In this document: positions 54,441-64,000 of the stretch, in pieces | Position numbering within the stretch: the stretch's first letter is position 1 | How the letters are laid out: each line of letters opens with the position of its first letter | From: Actinomycetes bacterium | GTDB lineage: Bacteria > Actinomycetota > Acidimicrobiia > Acidimicrobiales > Ilumatobacteraceae | Length of the DNA stretch: 64,000 bases | NCBI GenBank assembly: GCA_029782355.1 | Contig: JAKOUY010000002.1 | Location: 62,001-126,000 of the forward strand | Reading direction: 5' to 3' | Made by a program: the position numbers and the translations under genes | The notes under the pieces: generated by a model | Told to the model about the DNA's origin: nothing | Database searches by the model: none | Seen by the model: the letters and a program-made list of their open reading frames with translations, nothing else

Positions 54441-55121
54441 TCAGCCGCCGTGGTCGAAGCGGAACCCGACGCCGGCGTCGGTGATGAAGTATCTCGGCCG
54501 GGAAGGATCCGGTTCGAGCTTTCGGCGGATGTTGGCCATGTGAACTCTGAGCAAGCCCGAGTCCGCCTCCACGGTCGGGCCCCAGAGATGGGCGGCCATC
54601 TGCCGGTAGGTGACCAAGCGACCGGCCTGGGTGCACAGATGGGCGACGATGGAGAACTCGGTGGGGGTCAGGCGCACCTCGTCTTCACCGGCCACCACGC
54701 GGTGTCCGGCGATGTCGACGCGGAAATGGGCGGTGTCGATGGCGGCGGGCGTGGCCACGCCGCGCCGGCGGCGGAGCACGGCATTGATGCGCGCGACCAA
54801 CTCGCCCATGCCGAACGGCTTGGTGACGTAGTCGTCGGCGCCGGCGTCCAGCGCACGCACCTTGGAGCGCTCGTCGCCGCGGGCGGTGAGCACGATGACC
54901 GGCACTTCCGTCCAACCGCGCAGGCCCTCCAGCACCGTCAGGCCGTCGATGCCGGGCAGGCCGACGTCGAGCAACACCAGCTCGGGATGCTCGGCCGCTA
55001 CGGCAGTCAGCGCAGCCTCGCCACTGGTGGCCTCGACGGTCTCGAACCCGCGTACCGCCAGGTTCAGTGTCAACGCTCGGCGGATGGCCCGATCGTCATC
55101 GACCACCAGGATCAGTGTCAT
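54441..55121 (-). CDS. kdpE: Potassium-responsive response regulator KdpE
   Basis: A 226-residue OmpR-family regulator of the kdp operon. Receiver: ILVVDDDRAIRRAL, phospho-acceptor Asp52 in LVLLDVGLPGIDG, and DDYVTKPFGMGELVARI. The winged-helix DNA-binding domain has LTPTEFSIVAHLCTQAG and VTYRQMAAHLWGP. ATG overlaps the kdpD stop (ATGA). It is the last gene of the kdp cluster. Confidence 0.95.
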   Translation of the reverse strand: MTLILVVDDDRAIRRALTLNLAVRGFETVEATSGEAALTAVAAEHPELVLLDVGLPGIDGLTVLEGLRGWTEVPVIVLTARGDERSKVRALDAGADDYVTKPFGMGELVARINAVLRRRRGVATPAAIDTAHFRVDIAGHRVVAGEDEVRLTPTEFSIVAHLCTQAGRLVTYRQMAAHLWGPTVEADSGLLRVHMANIRRKLEPDPSRPRYFITDAGVGFRFDHGG

Positions 55122-57628
55122 ACCGGCATCGCCTCCGGCGCCGGCAGGATCATCGTGACCGTCAGCCCGCCGCCCGGCGTGTCACCGAGGACCAGCTGGC
55201 CGTTCATGGCCGTGATGAACCCCTGGCTGATCGACAGACCGAGGCCGACACCCGTGCTGCCCGGCGCATCCCCGAGCCGTTGGAAGGGTGCGACCACGCG
55301 CCCGCGGTCCGCCGGGTCGATGCCCGGCCCGTGGTCGCTCACCCGCAGCGCGACCCGTTCGTCGGCCAGCGACGACGACACGCTGACCGGCGTCCCCGCC
55401 GGGGCATAGCGGATGGCGTTGGCCGCGAGGTTGGCGACACAACGTTCCAAGAGCGCCGGATCCGCCCACACCACGTCGGCCTGGCGGTCCAGGCGCACCT
55501 CCACCGCGCCGGCAACAGGGCCGAGGCTGTCGATCGCCCGGCGGACCACTTCGGCCAGATCGACGGTTTCCAGGTGCACCGCCAACGCTCCGATCTGCAG
55601 CCGGCTGGCGTCGAGCAAGTTCTCCACCAGTCGGTTTAGCCGATCGGCTTCCTCGTCGACGGTGGTCAGCGCTTCGTGGAGTTGCTCGGAGGAAAACTGC
55701 ACGCCGGGCTCGAGCACGCCGGACACCATGGCCTTGATCGACGCCAGCGGCGTACGCAAGTCGTGGGACACGGCGCGCAGCAGTCCCGTGCGAACGGCAT
55801 CGACCTCGGCCAGCTCGGCCGCGCTGCGGGCCTGCTCGGCGAGGTTCCGGCTGTCCAGGGCGACACCCAGCTGCCCGGCGAATGTGGCCAGCAGGGCATG
55901 GGAACGCGGCGGGGGTGCCACGCCGAAGGTTTCCATCGTCACGGCCACCCCGGACGCGGTGACCGCCTGCGTGGTGAAGCTCGGCACCTCACCCAATTCG
56001 CCGACCTCGGCCACCACGGCCGGCGGCGCGCCGGTCAGCGAGGCTTCGCGCCGCAGGCGCACGCCGTCGACGCCCACCGTGGCGCGCACGTGGTCCAGCA
56101 ACGCGGGGATCGGATCGGGCTCGGCGGCCAAGCTGGTTGCCGAACGAGCCAGTGCCTCGGCTTCCAGGCGCGAGCGGCGCGCGTCGGCCGAGCGGCGGAT
56201 GACCACGTCCACCAGCAGCCCGACCGCCACGCCGACCACGACGAATACCGACAGCGCGACCACGTTCTCGGGATGGGCGATGGTCAACGTGCCGTACGGG
56301 GGGACGAAGAACCAGTTGGTGACCAGCGAGCTGGCCACCGCGGCCAGCACGGCGATCAACGTGCCGCCCACGGCCGCGACACCGATCACCAGGCACAGCT
56401 GGATGAGCAACAGCGTCGACAGGTTGGCTTGGCCGCGTAGGGGCATGAGCGCCCCGGTCAGCAACGGCAAGCCGACCACCAGGAGCAGCAACGCCCCCGA
56501 CATCCGCCTCCGATCGACACCGAACGTCGGGCGGATGGACGCTCCGTGCACCGTGTCCCGCTCCGACGCGATCACGTGGACGTCGATGTCACCCAGCAAT
56601 CGGGTCACTCGCGCCACCGTCGAACCGCGCATCAGCTCGGCCCAGCGTGACGGCCGCGACGAGCCCAGCACCACCTGGGTGGCCTTCTCCCGGCGGGCGA
56701 AACGTGCCAGCGTTTCGGCAGGATCGTCGCCCACCGCCTCGTAGCAGCGTCCACCCAACTCGGTCACCAACCGCCGCTGGCGCTCGAGCGCGGAATCGTC
56801 CCGCGCGGCCAGACCGTCGTCGGCGACGACGTGGACGCCGATCAGCTCACCACGGTTGCGCGCCGCCAGGCGTGCCGCCCGCCGCACGACCCGCTCGTCG
56901 TTGGCCATACCCGAGAGCGCTACGACGATGCGCTCGCGGGTCTCCCACGTGTCGGCGATGCCGTGCGTGACCAGATAGCCGGCCAGCGACTCCTCGACCC
57001 GGTCGGCCAGCCACAGCAGGGCCAGCTCGCGCAACGCGCCGAGGTTGCCGGGGCGGAAGTAGTTGGTCAGCGCGGCGTCGACCTTCTCGGCCGGATAGAT
57101 GTTGCCGTGCGCCATCCGCTTGCGGAGCGCTTCGGGCGACATGTCCACCAGCTCGATCTGATCGGCGCGCCGGACCATGGCATCGGGCACCGTCTCGCGC
57201 TGCTGCACACCGGTGATGCGGTACACGACGTCGTTGAGCGACTCGAGGTGCTGGATGTTGACCGTGGAGATGACGTCGATGCCGGCGTCCAGCAACGCTT
57301 CGACGTCCTGCCAGCGCTTCTCGTAGGTGCTGCCCGGGGCGTTGGTGTGGGCGTACTCGTCGACCAGCACGACTTTGGGCTGGCGGCGCAGGATGGCATC
57401 GAGATCCATCTCCTGCAACGTCGCACCGCGATACTGCACGGTGCGACGCGTGACCACCTCCAACTCGCCGATCTGCGCTGCGGTCTGCGACCGACCGTGG
57501 GTCTCGACGATGCCCACCACGACGTCAGCACCACGCGACCGCCGGCGGGCACCCTCGGACAACATGGCGTAGGTCTTGCCGACGCCCGGTGCGGCGCCGA
57601 GGTAGATACGCAGGCTGCCGCGTGCCAT
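55118..57628 (-). CDS. kdpD: Osmosensitive potassium sensor kinase KdpD
   Basis: An 836-residue kinase with the full KdpD layout. The N-terminal KdpD domain holds a Walker A (GAAPGVGKTYAML, about residue 13) and Walker B-like VVLVDEYAHTNAPG. A universal-stress-like domain follows (about 225-365; VALSGMANDERVVRRAARLA). Four membrane helices of DUF4118 occupy about 385-485. A GAF-like region precedes the HisKA motif VSHDLRTPLASIKAMV (about residue 620) and the ATPase domain (NLAANAIRYA, DHGPGIDP, GVGLGLSIS). It senses K+ and c-di-AMP or osmotic cues in known systems. Overlaps kdpE. Confidence 0.97.
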   Translation of the reverse strand: MARGSLRIYLGAAPGVGKTYAMLSEGARRRSRGADVVVGIVETHGRSQTAAQIGELEVVTRRTVQYRGATLQEMDLDAILRRQPKVVLVDEYAHTNAPGSTYEKRWQDVEALLDAGIDVISTVNIQHLESLNDVVYRITGVQQRETVPDAMVRRADQIELVDMSPEALRKRMAHGNIYPAEKVDAALTNYFRPGNLGALRELALLWLADRVEESLAGYLVTHGIADTWETRERIVVALSGMANDERVVRRAARLAARNRGELIGVHVVADDGLAARDDSALERQRRLVTELGGRCYEAVGDDPAETLARFARREKATQVVLGSSRPSRWAELMRGSTVARVTRLLGDIDVHVIASERDTVHGASIRPTFGVDRRRMSGALLLLVVGLPLLTGALMPLRGQANLSTLLLIQLCLVIGVAAVGGTLIAVLAAVASSLVTNWFFVPPYGTLTIAHPENVVALSVFVVVGVAVGLLVDVVIRRSADARRSRLEAEALARSATSLAAEPDPIPALLDHVRATVGVDGVRLRREASLTGAPPAVVAEVGELGEVPSFTTQAVTASGVAVTMETFGVAPPPRSHALLATFAGQLGVALDSRNLAEQARSAAELAEVDAVRTGLLRAVSHDLRTPLASIKAMVSGVLEPGVQFSSEQLHEALTTVDEEADRLNRLVENLLDASRLQIGALAVHLETVDLAEVVRRAIDSLGPVAGAVEVRLDRQADVVWADPALLERCVANLAANAIRYAPAGTPVSVSSSLADERVALRVSDHGPGIDPADRGRVVAPFQRLGDAPGSTGVGLGLSISQGFITAMNGQLVLGDTPGGGLTVTMILPAPEAMPV

Positions 57629-57646
57629 CGCGTCAGTCTCCCAGAG

Positions 57647-58237
57647 TCACTGGTTCGACCTGAGTGCGTCGAGGGCCAGGTTGAGCCGCAGCACGTTGAC
57701 GCCCGGCTCGCCGAGGACCCCGAGCATCCGCCCGTCGACGTGGTGAGCGATCAGCGCCATGACCTGGTCGACGGGCAGTCCCCGCGCCGTCGCGACGCGA
57801 CCAGCCTGGAGTCGGGCGTTAGCGACGGAGATGTGCGGGTCGAGGCCGGAACCCGAGGCGGTGACGGCGTCCACGGGCACCAGCTGGGTGGCCGGCAATC
57901 CGTTCTCGGCGCGGTACGCGGTCACCCGTTGGCGGACGGCAGCCGCCAGTTCGTCACTGGTCGGACCGAGGTTCGACGCCCCGCTGACCTGCGCGATGGG
58001 CGTATCGGTCAGGGCCGACGGGCGGCCATGGAAGTAGCCCGGTGCAGTGAACGTCTGACCAAGCAACTCGCTGCCCACCAGCGCCCCGTTGCGCCGGACG
58101 AGTGATCCATTGGCCCGGTAGTGGAAGGCCGTCTGACCGATGGCGGTGACCACGAGGGGGTAGACCACACCGCAGATCGCGGTCAGTGCCACGAACACCA
58201 GCAGAGCGGGTCGCAGTTGGCGGACGAAGGCACGCAT
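57647..58237 (-). CDS. kdpC: Potassium-transporting ATPase subunit KdpC
   Basis: A 196-residue single-pass membrane protein. One N-terminal helix ([21 protein letters not shown]) is followed by the extracytoplasmic domain with [40 protein letters not shown] and [11 protein letters not shown]. It stabilises the KdpFABC complex. ATG at 58235-58237 has GGAG upstream; the open frame to 58285 overlaps kdpB. Confidence 0.95.
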
Positions 58238-58250
58238 CAGATCGCTCCGT

Positions 58251-60359
58251 TCACTTGATGCCCAGGGCGCTGAGCGCCAGGTCAATCAACTTGATGCCCA
58301 CGAACGGCGTGATCACGCCGCCGACCCCGTAGATCAGCAGGTTGCGGCGCAGCACTGAGGCGGCCGACTCGGCCCGGAACTTCACCCCGCGCAGGGCGAG
58401 CGGCACCAGCGCAACGATGACCAGCGCATTGAAGATGACCGCGCTGAGGATGGCCGAACGCGGGCTGCCCAGCTGCATCACGTTGAGAGCAGCGAGCTGC
58501 GGCAACGCCACGGCGAACATGGCCGGGATGATGGCGAAGTACTTGGCCAGGTCGTTGGCGATCGAGAACGTGGTCAGCGAACCGCGAGTCATCAACAGCT
58601 GCTTGCCGACCTCGACGATCTCGATCAGCTTGGTTGGGTTGCTGTCGAGGTCGATCATGTTCCCCGCCTCCTTCGCCGCCTGCGTGCCGGTGTTCATGGC
58701 CACGCCGACATCGGCCTGAGCCAGCGCCGGGGCGTCGTTGGTGCCGTCCCCGGTCATGGCCACCAGGTTGCCGCCGGCCTGCTCGCGCTTGATCAGCGCC
58801 ATCTTGTCCTCTGGCGTCGCCTCGGCCAGGAAGTCGTCGACACCGGCTTCGGCGGCGATCGCAGCGGCCGTGAGCGGGTTGTCGCCGGTGATCATCACCG
58901 TGCGGATGCCCATGGTGCGAAGGTGGTCGAAGCGCTCACGCATGCCCAGCTTCACCGTGTCCTTCAAGCGGATCACGCCGAGGGCCCGCCACGCCTCGCC
59001 GGGCACCCGGTCGATGACCACCAGCGGCGTCGCGCCGTCCTTGGACACCTCCTCGACGATCGGCGCCAGCTCGCGCGGGACGTGGGCGCCCTGCGCCTCG
59101 AGGAAGCGGCGCACCGAGTCGGCCGCGCCCTTGCGCACCTGTCGACCGGTTGCGAAATCCATCCCGGACATGCGCGTCTGGGCGGTGAACGGCACCAGCT
59201 CGGCGCCGTCGGCGCACGGCGCGGCCAACCCGAACCCCTGCAGGGCCAGCTCCACGATGGACCGGCCCTCGGGCGTTTCGTCCGCCAGGGATGACGCCAG
59301 CGCCGCTTCGGCCACCTGGCCGGGGTTCACCGCATGGACGCCGATGAATTCGGCCGCCTGGCGCGAGCCGTAGGTGATGGTGCCGGTCTTGTCCAACAGC
59401 AACGTGGTGACGTCGCCGGCGGCCTCAACCGCTCGACCGGACATGGCCAGCACGTTGCGCTGCACCAGGCGGTCCATGCCGGCGATGCCGATGGACGACA
59501 GCAGCCCGCCGATGGTGGTGGGGATCAGGCACACCAGCAGGGCGACCAGCACGATGATGTTCTGCGGCGCGCCCGACATGGTGGCGAAGGGCTGGAGCGT
59601 TGCCACCGCCAGCAGGAAGACGATCGTCAGACCGGCCAGCAGGATCGAGAGGGCGATCTCGTTCGGCGTCTTCTGCCGGTTGGCGCCTTCGACCAGAGCG
59701 ATCATCCGGTCGAGGAACGTCTCTCCCGGCTTGGCCGAGATCCGCACGACGATCTCGTCGCTCAGCACTCGGGTGCCACCGGTGACGGCCGAACGATCGC
59801 CACCGGATTCGCGTACCACCGGCGCCGACTCGCCCGTGATGGCAGACTCGTCCACCGTGGCAATGCCCTCGACGATGTCGCCGTCGCCGGGGATCACCTC
59901 GCCGGCCGCGACCACACACCGGTCGCCCACAGCCAGTGCCGACGACGGCGTCTCGACGATCGAGCCGTCGGCCTGGCGCACCCGGGCCACCGTGTCGGCA
60001 CGGGTCTTGCGCAAGGTGTCGGCCTGAGCCTTGCCTCGCCCCTCGGCCACCGCCTCGGCAAGGTTGGCGAACAGCACGGTGAACCACAGCCAGCCGGCGA
60101 CGAGCCCACCGAACAGGTTCTCCTGCAACGTTCCGTGGCGCAGGTGGCGCAGGAACAGCACCGTGGTGAGCGCCGAGCCGACCTCGACGATGAACATCAC
60201 CGGGTTGCGCACCATCTGGCGCGGGTCGAGCTTGCGCACCGAGCCGGCCACCGCGCTGCGCAGCACGTCACGGTCGAACAGCGTCGAGGTGGCCGGCGCC
60301 TTGGTACGCACCTTCGGCGGCCGTTCGGCGCTCCCGGGAAACGCGGTGGTCGTGGACAT
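58251..60359 (-). CDS. kdpB: Potassium-transporting ATPase subunit KdpB (P-type ATPase)
   Basis: A 702-residue P-type ATPase that powers high-affinity K+ uptake. The phosphorylated Asp is in [16 protein letters not shown] (about residue 320), preceded by the TGES-type loop [34 protein letters not shown] closes the P-domain. Seven membrane segments are expected. A short N-terminus rich in Thr/Pro precedes the first helix. It is in order kdpF-kdpA-kdpB-kdpC with gaps of 14 and 13 bases. Confidence 0.97.
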
Positions 60360-60373
60360 TGGGAGCCTCGCTG

Positions 60374-62098
60374 TCAGAGCTTGAGGTGTTCGAGGATGGG
60401 ACCCAGCGCCAGGGCCGGGAAGAACGTCAGGCCCGCCACGATGACCGCCACACCTGCCAGCAGGCCGGCGAACAGCGCAGTATTGGTGGGCATGGTCCCG
60501 GCGGTCACCGGCACCTTCGGCTTGGCGGCCAGCGAGCCGCCGATGGCCAACGCGGGCACGATGGTGAAGAACCGGCCGATCAGCATGGCCACGCCCTGGG
60601 TGGACATGTACCACGTGGTCGCCGTGTTCTGCCCGCCGAACGCCGAACCGTTGTTGTTGGCCGCCGAGGCGTAGTTGTAGAGCACCTCGGACAACCCGTG
60701 TGGCCCGGCCTGATAGGTGTGCGCCGAGCGCAGCACCACGGCCGTGGCGGCGAAGCCGAGCAGGGCCAGCGGCATGGCCAGGATGTACAGGGTCAGCAGC
60801 TTCATCTCCGCCGCCTGGATCCTCTTGCCGAGGTATTCGGGTGTTCGGCCCACCATCAGCCCGGCGATGAACACCGCCAGGAGGGCGTAGATCAGCAGCC
60901 CCATCAGACCGACGCCCACCCCACCCGGCGAGATCTCGCCGAACATCATGTGGACCATCGGCGCCAGCCCGCCGAGCGGTGTCATCGAGTCGTGGGCGCA
61001 GTTCACCGCGCCGGTCGAGGTACCGGTGGTCGGCCCGGCGAACAGCCCGCAACCGGCCGCGCCGATACGCACCTCCTTGCCCTCCAGGTTGCCGCCCGAC
61101 TGCTGGATCGACATCGACTGGTCGACGCCCAGCGCATTCAGCCGTGGGTTGCCGGACTGTTCGGCGAAGCTGGCCAGCGAGGTGATCAGCACGAGGATGC
61201 CGGCCATGACCAGCGCCAGCACCTTGGCCTGTCGGCGATCACCGACCAACCGCCCGAACGCACCCACCATGGCAAACGGGATCAGCAGCAGCGCCCAGAT
61301 CTCCAGCAGGTTGGTCAGCGGGTTGGGGTTCTCGAACGGATGCGCTGAGTTGGCGTTGTAGAAGCCGCCACCGTTGGTTCCCAGCATCTTCGGCGCCTCC
61401 TGGCTGGCCACGGGCCCGCCAGGAATGTGCTGGGTGGTCGACGCACCGGAGTCGAGCGTGGCCACCACCCGGTCGCCGCGCAGGTTCTGGACGACGCCCT
61501 GCGATACCAGCACCACGGAGAACACCAGGCACAACGGCAGCAGGACGCGAACCACGGTGCGCACCAAGTCGACCCAGAAGTTGCCGAGCTGGTTGGTCCC
61601 GGCACGGACCACGCCGCGGATCAGGGCGACGGCCACCGCCATCCCAGCGGCCGCGGACACCACGTTTTGCACTGCCAGGCCGAGCATCTGGATCAGATGG
61701 CTTGCGGAGACCTCACCGGCGTACCACTGCCAGTTGGTGTTCGTCACGAAGCTGATCGCCGTGTTGAACGCCCCCGCCGGCGACATCGACGGACGATGGC
61801 CGGGGTTTCCCGGCAGCGAGCCCTGCAGGCGGACCAGCAGGTACAGCCCGAGGACGGACACCATGGAGAAGGCCAGCATCGACGCGGCATACGCCGTCCA
61901 GCGCTGCTCACGCCGCGGGTCGATCCGCATCGTTCGATAAACCAGCCGCTCGACGGGTCCGAAGACCCGCTCGCCAGGGGCACGGTCGACACCGTGGCGG
62001 GCACCGTACACCGCGGCCAGGTAGTTGCCGAGCGGGGGAACGGTGATGAACAGGGCGAGCGCCAGCGCACCTGCTTGAAGGATGGCTTGCCAGCTCAT
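60374..62098 (-). CDS. kdpA: Potassium-transporting ATPase subunit KdpA
   Basis: A 574-residue K+ channel-like subunit with ten membrane segments and four selectivity-filter loops, including [19 protein letters not shown] and [21 protein letters not shown]-terminus [16 protein letters not shown] is typical. The ATG overlaps the kdpF stop by one base (TGATG). Confidence 0.97.
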
Positions 62099-62217
62099 CA
62101 GAACCGCTCAGGCCAGATGAGGACGGCGACCAGGTACAGGATCGCCACCACGGCGAGGGCTAGGCCGATCCAGTTGTCGGCGGTCGAGGCAGTGATGGCG
62201 GTCGAGACAGCGATCAT
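62098..62217 (-). CDS. kdpF: Potassium-transporting ATPase small subunit KdpF
   Basis: A 39-residue single-helix protein, ending [20 protein letters not shown]. The final PERF is characteristic of KdpF, which stabilises the Kdp complex with lipid. ATG at 62215-62217 overlaps the stop of the next small gene, and its TGA overlaps the kdpA ATG by one base. Confidence 0.9.
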
Positions 62218-62573: not shown

Positions 62574-64000
62574 TCAGTGCATCGGTGCGGTGGGTTCGGG
62601 TGGCGTGGCGATGAGGGTGATCGCCGGGTTCAGCATGGCTCGCCGACCGTGGTGCCGGCCGGCCACACCGGTGACGGCCATCACCGTGCCGAGGCGGACA
62701 CCGCCCACCTCGCGGCGGCCGAGGAACAGCACGTCGATGCTGCCGGTCTCGTCGGCCAGGGAGCACTCCAGTGCCGGGTTGCCGGCCCACGGCTGGACGC
62801 GCATCGCTCGGACCTTGCCGGCCACGGTGACCCGCTGGCGCATCGGCATGGTGGCGATCTGGACTCGTTCAGCCGGGAGTCGGGACGTGTCGAGACTGGC
62901 CGAGCGCAGCCCGGGGCGCGGCGCGGTGACCGTGACGGCAGCGCCCGGCGAAGCGTCCCCGGTCGGTGCGCTCGGTGTGAACGAGCCGAGGTGGTACGGG
63001 ATGACCATCACGTTGCAGTGCGGCACGGACCCGAGCGCGGCGGCGATCGACGACGACGAGCGATCGTGCAACAGGCGGTGCCAGCGCTTGACGTACTCCC
63101 GGCGAGGGATGATCACGGTCGCCTCCGTGGCCCCGTCATCGACCACGTCGGACACCAGCTCGAGCGCGCCGCGGGCGACGCGCCGGTCGGGGCACTCGAT
63201 GATCTCGAGCGGGAAGCGGGACAGACCGAGTTGCGTCCACTCGGTGGTCAGCTCGCGGGTCTTCCACGGGTCGAGGTCGAAGTGCACCGCACGCAGATCG
63301 TCGGGCGTCAGCGTGCGGGCGTACTGCATCGCCCGGGCGACGGCGGCGTCGAGCTGGTCGACCAGGACCAGCACGGTGTGGCTGCGCAGCGTCGGCACGG
63401 CCGCCAGGGCCGCCGCGTTGGCGTGCAACTCGGTGGCCTCGGTCTCGTAGGCCTTGTTCAGGCGCATCAGCCCGAACACGAAGATCGGCACCAGCAGCAC
63501 GATCACCCAGGCACCCTCCATGAACTTCATCGAGGCGATGATCGCCAGCACGACGAAGGAGAGGATCGCACCGATGGCGTTGATCACCAGACCTCGGCGC
63601 CACTGGGGCTCCCGGTGGGTGATGTGGTGCTTGGCCATCCCGGCCTGGGAGAGCGTGAAGCTGGTGAACACCCCCACGGCGTACAGCGGGATCAGCCGCC
63701 CGACCGACCCGCCGGTGGCCAGCAGGGTGACGATGCCGGCCCCCGCCAGGAAGATGATCCCGTTGGAGAACACCAGCCGGTGGCCACGGACCTGGAGCTG
63801 GCGGGGCATGAAGTTGTCGCCGGCATGGAACGAGGCCAACCGGGGGAAGTCGGCAAAGCTGGTGTTGGCCGCCAGGACGAGGATCATCATCGTCCCGGCC
63901 TGCAACAGGAGGAACAGCAGGTGGCCGACGGGGCTGGTCCCGTAGACCAGCTTGGCCACCTGCGAGATGACCGAGGGGACCTCGTCCCGGTACGGCACGG
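62574..64000 (-). CDS. KimA-like APC-superfamily potassium permease with C-terminal OB-fold, truncated
   Basis: The last 475 or so residues of a permease whose start lies beyond the window. ANTSFADFPRLASFHAGDNF, MPRQLQVRGHRLVFSNGII and IPLYAVGVFTSFTLSQAGMAKH are very like KimA/YdaO, a proton-coupled K+ importer of the APC superfamily. After about seven helices comes a cytoplasmic region (VLVLVDQLDAAVARAMQYA, VTVIIPRREY-like) and, at the end, an OB-fold-like domain (TVAGKVRAMRVQPW, then ECSLADETGSIDVLFLG). In mycobacteria a similar OB-fold is a separate gene near trk genes. The neighbouring kdp operon supports a potassium role. Confidence 0.82.
   Translation of the reverse strand, partial: VPYRDEVPSVISQVAKLVYGTSPVGHLLFLLLQAGTMMILVLAANTSFADFPRLASFHAGDNFMPRQLQVRGHRLVFSNGIIFLAGAGIVTLLATGGSVGRLIPLYAVGVFTSFTLSQAGMAKHHITHREPQWRRGLVINAIGAILSFVVLAIIASMKFMEGAWVIVLLVPIFVFGLMRLNKAYETEATELHANAAALAAVPTLRSHTVLVLVDQLDAAVARAMQYARTLTPDDLRAVHFDLDPWKTRELTTEWTQLGLSRFPLEIIECPDRRVARGALELVSDVVDDGATEATVIIPRREYVKRWHRLLHDRSSSSIAAALGSVPHCNVMVIPYHLGSFTPSAPTGDASPGAAVTVTAPRPGLRSASLDTSRLPAERVQIATMPMRQRVTVAGKVRAMRVQPWAGNPALECSLADETGSIDVLFLGRREVGGVRLGTVMAVTGVAGRHHGRRAMLNPAITLIATPPEPTAPMH

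Follow-up and report, generated by a model that had tools for sequence, protein, structure and literature searches.

The window analysed here is a stretch of 64,000 nucleotides (C4:62001-126000) from a 3.79-Mb genome that is 98% complete and assembled in 40 contigs. An open reading frame on its minus strand (62574-63998) is real and is still open at the window end; the contig extends beyond the window, and the complete permease gene encodes 799 amino acids from a GTG start codon. The sequence-only reading, which had called for the sequence past position 64000, proposed a KimA-like potassium permease fused to an OB-fold, and the complete gene contains both the KimA body and the OB tail. The features of the locus are the following, where kdpA to kdpE are ORFs with homologues in the kdp clusters of relatives.

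54441..55121, minus strand: kdpE, first copy
55118..57628, minus strand: kdpD, first copy, with an intact Walker A motif (ORF and translation)
57647..58285, minus strand: kdpC
58251..60362, minus strand: kdpB (start approximate)
60374..62098, minus strand: kdpA
62098..62217, minus strand: kdpF (Pfam KdpF, E 4e-6; start placed at an internal Met); 356 bp separate it from the permease stop
62574..64973, minus strand: whole permease gene (L007:6575-8974), including contig sequence beyond the window, with its stop at 62574
62574..64000, minus strand: C-terminal part (about residues 325-799) of the KimA-type permease with OB tail (ORF, KimA match, Pfam AA_permease_2 E 4.9e-24)
62607..62867, minus strand: OB-fold domain, about residues 703-789 (Pfam, AlphaFold2 model, fold comparison, alignment)
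62868..62987, minus strand: poorly conserved linker, about residues 663-702 (alignment; pLDDT 45-75 over most of the linker)
62988..63398, minus strand: KimA cytosolic (PPAT/Usp-like) domain, about residues 526-662 (model compared with 8b70/8b71, Z 17.5)

The names kdpA, kdpB, kdpC, kdpD and kdpE at 54441-62098 are presumed assignments. On a single strand, the gene order is second kdpD-kdpE, permease-OB, and then kdpFABC-kdpD-kdpE downstream, in agreement with the earlier description of a permease that adjoins kdp and forms a potassium block with it. The second kdpD and kdpE, upstream of the permease, meet at a TGATG junction, and this kdpE ends about 67 bp before the permease. Because the permease gene lies directly behind this kdpDE pair, its expression may be under KdpDE control.

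Two further genes were observed upstream. In the second KdpD (L007:9731-12280, minus strand, just past the window end), Thr replaces the Lys of Walker A (GAGTT) and the kinase His box is kept; the Thr differs from the other KdpD-type ORFs listed at loci of the same permease clade. Upstream of the potassium block, at the contig edge, L007:12317-13417 (minus strand) encodes an SdrD/DUF11-type protein with a membrane-anchor-like C-terminus, which we take to have a role at the cell surface.

Residues 42-662 of the permease align to Bacillus subtilis KimA (KUP/APC superfamily; 6s3k, 8b70, 8b71) over nearly its full length (phmmer E 1.4e-114; next match E 0.006), with the same cytosolic fold and the same K+ site, and the model of residues 500-799 aligns to the KimA cytosolic domain in both 8b70 and 8b71. 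According to the accessible portion of the KimA study, K+ is coordinated by Asp36, Tyr43, Thr230, and Tyr377 (PMC10284832). The equivalent residues in the 799-aa protein are D73, Y80, T278, and Y431; all four are kept, and 22 of the 23 fused proteins in the alignment have the identical set, the remaining one having Ser for Thr. The phmmer match over both KimA domains, together with the K+ site, bears out the identification of the permease body as KimA-like. Transport of amino acids is disfavoured, since the protein retains every one of the four KimA residues that coordinate K+. From the alignment, we infer that the 799-aa protein is a KimA-type K+/H+ symporter, which would transport K+. Whereas B. 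subtilis KimA ends at the cytosolic domain, a linker and an OB-fold follow here, and relatives of the protein are linked to TrkA genes.

The AlphaFold2 model, which spans residues 500-799, has a mean pLDDT of 88.5 and reaches about 95 in the tail, where it forms the strands of an OB beta barrel. In the full protein, residues 715-786 match the OB-fold family PF01336 at E 2e-4, below the Pfam curated cut-off; a scan restricted to the last 110 residues improves the match to E 7e-6, just below the cut-off (26.3 bits vs. 27). Fold comparison aligned the tail model to archaeal RPA OB domains (Z 13.0, rmsd 2.2, 90 residues) and to OB domains of AspRS/AsnRS (Z about 11), PolC (11.1), and RecG (10.8). 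The domain search, the model, and the fold comparison thus agree that the tail is an OB-fold. The fold is the same as in archaeal RPA and AspRS/AsnRS; however, here it is carried on a membrane transporter and has its own conserved motif, with conserved residues at R712, G719, D741, G744, F750, GRR 752-754, G758, G762, G769, and NP 782-783.

A KimA-type match was identified in 89 of 148 genomes of the order. We placed 113 distinct permeases, from which duplicate rows and partial permeases had been removed beforehand, in a quick tree with quick support values and a midpoint root. The clade of the fused gene comprises 69 rows: 53 are fused, 15 have the OB domain as the next gene downstream, and 1 is cut by a contig end, such that OB is present in all 68 judgeable rows. 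The fork separating this clade from the nearest permeases with tandem domains has a support of 88. Since the permease-OB architecture is seen in dozens of genomes from different families, an assembly error or chance fusion is rejected, and the fusion is confirmed. In 10 of the 15 split forms, OB has a start codon positioned between -1 and +4 relative to the stop of the permease; in L019, L020, L021, and L024, a candidate start lies 14-38 bases upstream of the stop, and in L018 the scanned stretch contains no start codon. As the split form is common to related genomes and has a start codon at the stop in 10 of 15 cases, a frameshift artefact is unlikely as a rule.

The KimA2 side of the tree, which includes the paralogue described below, has no attached OB domain except at L050. 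That locus (L050:982-7022) encodes two tandem KimA-OB fusions, one from each KimA clade, and the pair points to an independent second fusion. A few fusions occur outside the order (f89: G239, G506, G513). L109, from a family outside the order, is the sole such fusion placed in the tree; its branch is long and its OB domain has no GRR motif, and therefore the motif is not essential everywhere. Another extended architecture, KimA with two tandem cytosolic domains, was observed in other Actinomycetota families (L092, L093, L095, L097-L099, L101-L103, L107, L108, L111, and L112).

At 28 of 43 loci of the fused gene's clade, the flanking DNA covered by the analysis contains kdp or trkA genes. By overlapping counts, kdpABC occurs at 7 of the 43 loci, KdpD/KdpE at 20, and TrkA at 9. 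The other 15 loci show neither kdp nor trkA, and 7 of these span under 9 kb of DNA.

The sequence-only reading likened the tail to an OB-fold protein that mycobacteria encode separately near trk genes, and a gene of this kind was found in this genome, beside a second KimA gene and two TrkA genes.

C19:5254-7122: KimA2, the sole other KimA of this genome, with no tail and 44% identity to the fused KimA

KimA2, the two single-domain TrkA (RCK) genes TrkA1 and TrkA2, and OB form a tight string of genes in the same orientation, in which TGATG overlaps join TrkA1 to TrkA2 and TrkA2 to OB. The free OB protein encoded downstream of TrkA2 is 115 amino acids long and has 39% identity to the tail (E 2.8e-12). 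Fused (n=58), adjacent (n=16), and free (n=7, one a fragment) OB sequences have common key positions, namely R712, G719, P728, L735, E736, D741, G744, GRR 752-754, G758, G762, G769, and N782-P783. Based on these sequence comparisons, the fused tail and the free OB protein of the KimA2-TrkA string are assigned to the same OB subfamily. Upstream of the string, on the same strand, lies a gene (G000:C19:7196-8848, L008) for a membrane protein that we presume to be TerC-like.

The arrangement resembles the Mycobacterium tuberculosis locus of CeoB/CeoC, Rv2690c, and Rv2694c, which, like the KimA2 string, would encode a KimA-type permease and a small OB protein along with two TrkA proteins; the difference is that the second KimA here carries a fused OB domain and adjoins kdp. 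We take Rv2690c to be KimA-like and Rv2694c to be the OB protein, and the wider M. tuberculosis gene order is likewise presumed. In the accessible portions of the M. tuberculosis potassium papers, Trk consists of CeoB and CeoC, two TrkA proteins, and no membrane subunit is named. In the accessible portion of a transposon study, ceoB and its neighbour Rv2690c are reported to have the same phenotype (PMC12216072).

A search for TrkH/KtrB (PF02386) returned 0 candidates in this genome, and 63 of the 148 genomes of the order were positive. KimA and TrkH nearly exclude each other within the order: 9 genomes have both, 80 have KimA only, 54 have TrkH only, and 5 have neither (Fisher p 7e-25, a value that is overstated, like the co-occurrence p-values generally, by counting related genomes as independent, although the pattern spans many families). 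A TrkA2-type gene is present in 72 of the 148 genomes; all 72 have KimA, and 9 have TrkH. Among the matches listed, 58 of 73 TrkA2-type copies are within 3 kb of KimA, and 28 of these 58 neighbouring KimA matches are longer than 2.2 kb, the size expected with an OB domain.

RCK proteins are regulators of TrkH/KtrB. The likeness of the present genes to Trk/Ktr systems (TrkH or KtrB with RCK) lies in their RCK (TrkA-type) regulators for K+ uptake; however, this genome has no TrkH/KtrB-family gene, and the membrane part would be KimA. On balance, we lean towards the view that KimA replaces TrkH as the K+-conducting part and is regulated from the cytosol by the TrkA pair and the OB domain. Under this proposal, the KimA symporter would stand in TrkH's place in these actinobacteria, and the TrkA pair would contact KimA from the cytosolic side. 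The OB domain would serve as an adaptor or as a ligand sensor, acting on the swapped cytosolic domains of KimA and thereby gating transport, and candidate partners for it are a ligand, RCK proteins, or these KimA domains. In known systems, RCK proteins are nucleotide binders. Fusion would lock the OB domain 1:1 to the permease, and a regulatory role, as suggested in the sequence-only reading, is the likeliest meaning of the fusion. Several observations count against the proposal: 17 of 89 KimA genomes have no TrkA2 match at E 1e-20; 15 of 73 TrkA copies, among the matches listed, have no KimA on their own contig; the TrkA pair adjoins the paralogue KimA2 and not the fused gene at the window locus; and 9 genomes carry KimA and TrkH together.

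A broader form of the proposal is that TrkA pairs of the CeoB/CeoC type are RCK regulators of KimA symporters and not Trk remnants, that a dedicated OB-fold protein or domain makes up the third part, and that KimA-RCK-OB is a distinct class of regulated K+ importer that replaced TrkH, with the OB domain fused in the present protein. We advance this form tentatively, as a claim that falls somewhat short of probable.

The OB domain might instead sense a ligand directly, binding some other small molecule (a nucleotide, for example), and not act as a dock for TrkA or the permease. The conserved charged residues R712, E736, D741, R753, and R754 are consistent with such a sensor, as is the presence of OB at loci with no trkA nearby; however, none of the results indicates a ligand, and the closest folds are nucleic-acid-binding OB domains, so we regard this alternative as unlikely, although it deserves serious attention. 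A passive role for the tail, as a stabilising or dimerising extension with no regulatory effect, would suit the long and variable linker. It is improbable given that OB accompanies the permease in 68 of 68 judgeable clade rows, as a fused domain or as a neighbouring gene, and that a separate free OB form has the same motif.

The sequence-only reading had suggested that the tail might sense c-di-AMP. According to the accessible portion of the KimA study, B. subtilis KimA is inhibited by c-di-AMP and is regulated through its own cytosolic domain, which holds the c-di-AMP pocket (PMC10284832). The inhibition lends the suggestion some initial appeal; however, the domain that holds the known pocket is also present in the 799-aa protein, separate from the tail. 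Of the five pocket positions mapped, the equivalents of Arg337, His579, and Ser582 are kept, whereas Asn580 is replaced by Asp and Gln581 by Arg. Using PF02457, we found 0 matches to the diadenylate cyclase (DAC) domain in this 98%-complete genome, with controls positive in 11 of 14 cases. Across the order, 101 of 148 genomes contain the domain, as do 11 of the 16 family members examined; in this genome, G578, and G531, the fusion occurs and PF02457 gave no match. Among the matches listed, at least 39 genomes of the order carry a near-full-length fusion, defined as a match that begins close to the N-terminus and extends at least to residue 780 (fragments, e.g., that of G063, are excluded); DAC is present in 31 of these 39 and absent in 8.

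DAC is commoner in genomes with KimA (74 of 89) than in those without (27 of 59), which could be read in favour of a c-di-AMP sensor. This association fits regulation of KimA through its cytosolic domain in other species; it does not argue for the OB tail as the site of the ligand. Among the matches listed, no OB structure near the tail is titled as a c-di-AMP receptor, an outcome that leaves room for one. Given the location of the known pocket and the fused genomes that lack DAC, this one among them, the suggestion is not supported, and a c-di-AMP sensor in the tail is very improbable.

Binding of RNA or DNA at the membrane is a very improbable role for the OB domain; the nearest folds (RPA, AspRS/AsnRS, PolC, and RecG OB domains) speak for it, but the linked genes are potassium genes and only positions 750 and 785 are aromatic in >90% of the fused set, with Ile at 785 in this protein.

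The KimA-OB fusion is common within its own bacterial group and is apparently undescribed in the literature searched; that search, confined mostly to papers outside subscription and to their accessible portions, returned no paper recognisable as dealing with a KimA-OB fusion or with KimA in the role of partner to a TrkA pair. The genomes of the order suggest a mix of KimA and RCK with an OB-fold part that was not found in this literature. Such importers, together with two TrkA proteins and an OB domain, may substitute for TrkH, which is lacking in many of these bacteria. If KimA-like permeases are the membrane subunit left unnamed in the M. tuberculosis papers, a gap in the understanding of K+ uptake by actinobacteria can be put to a direct test.
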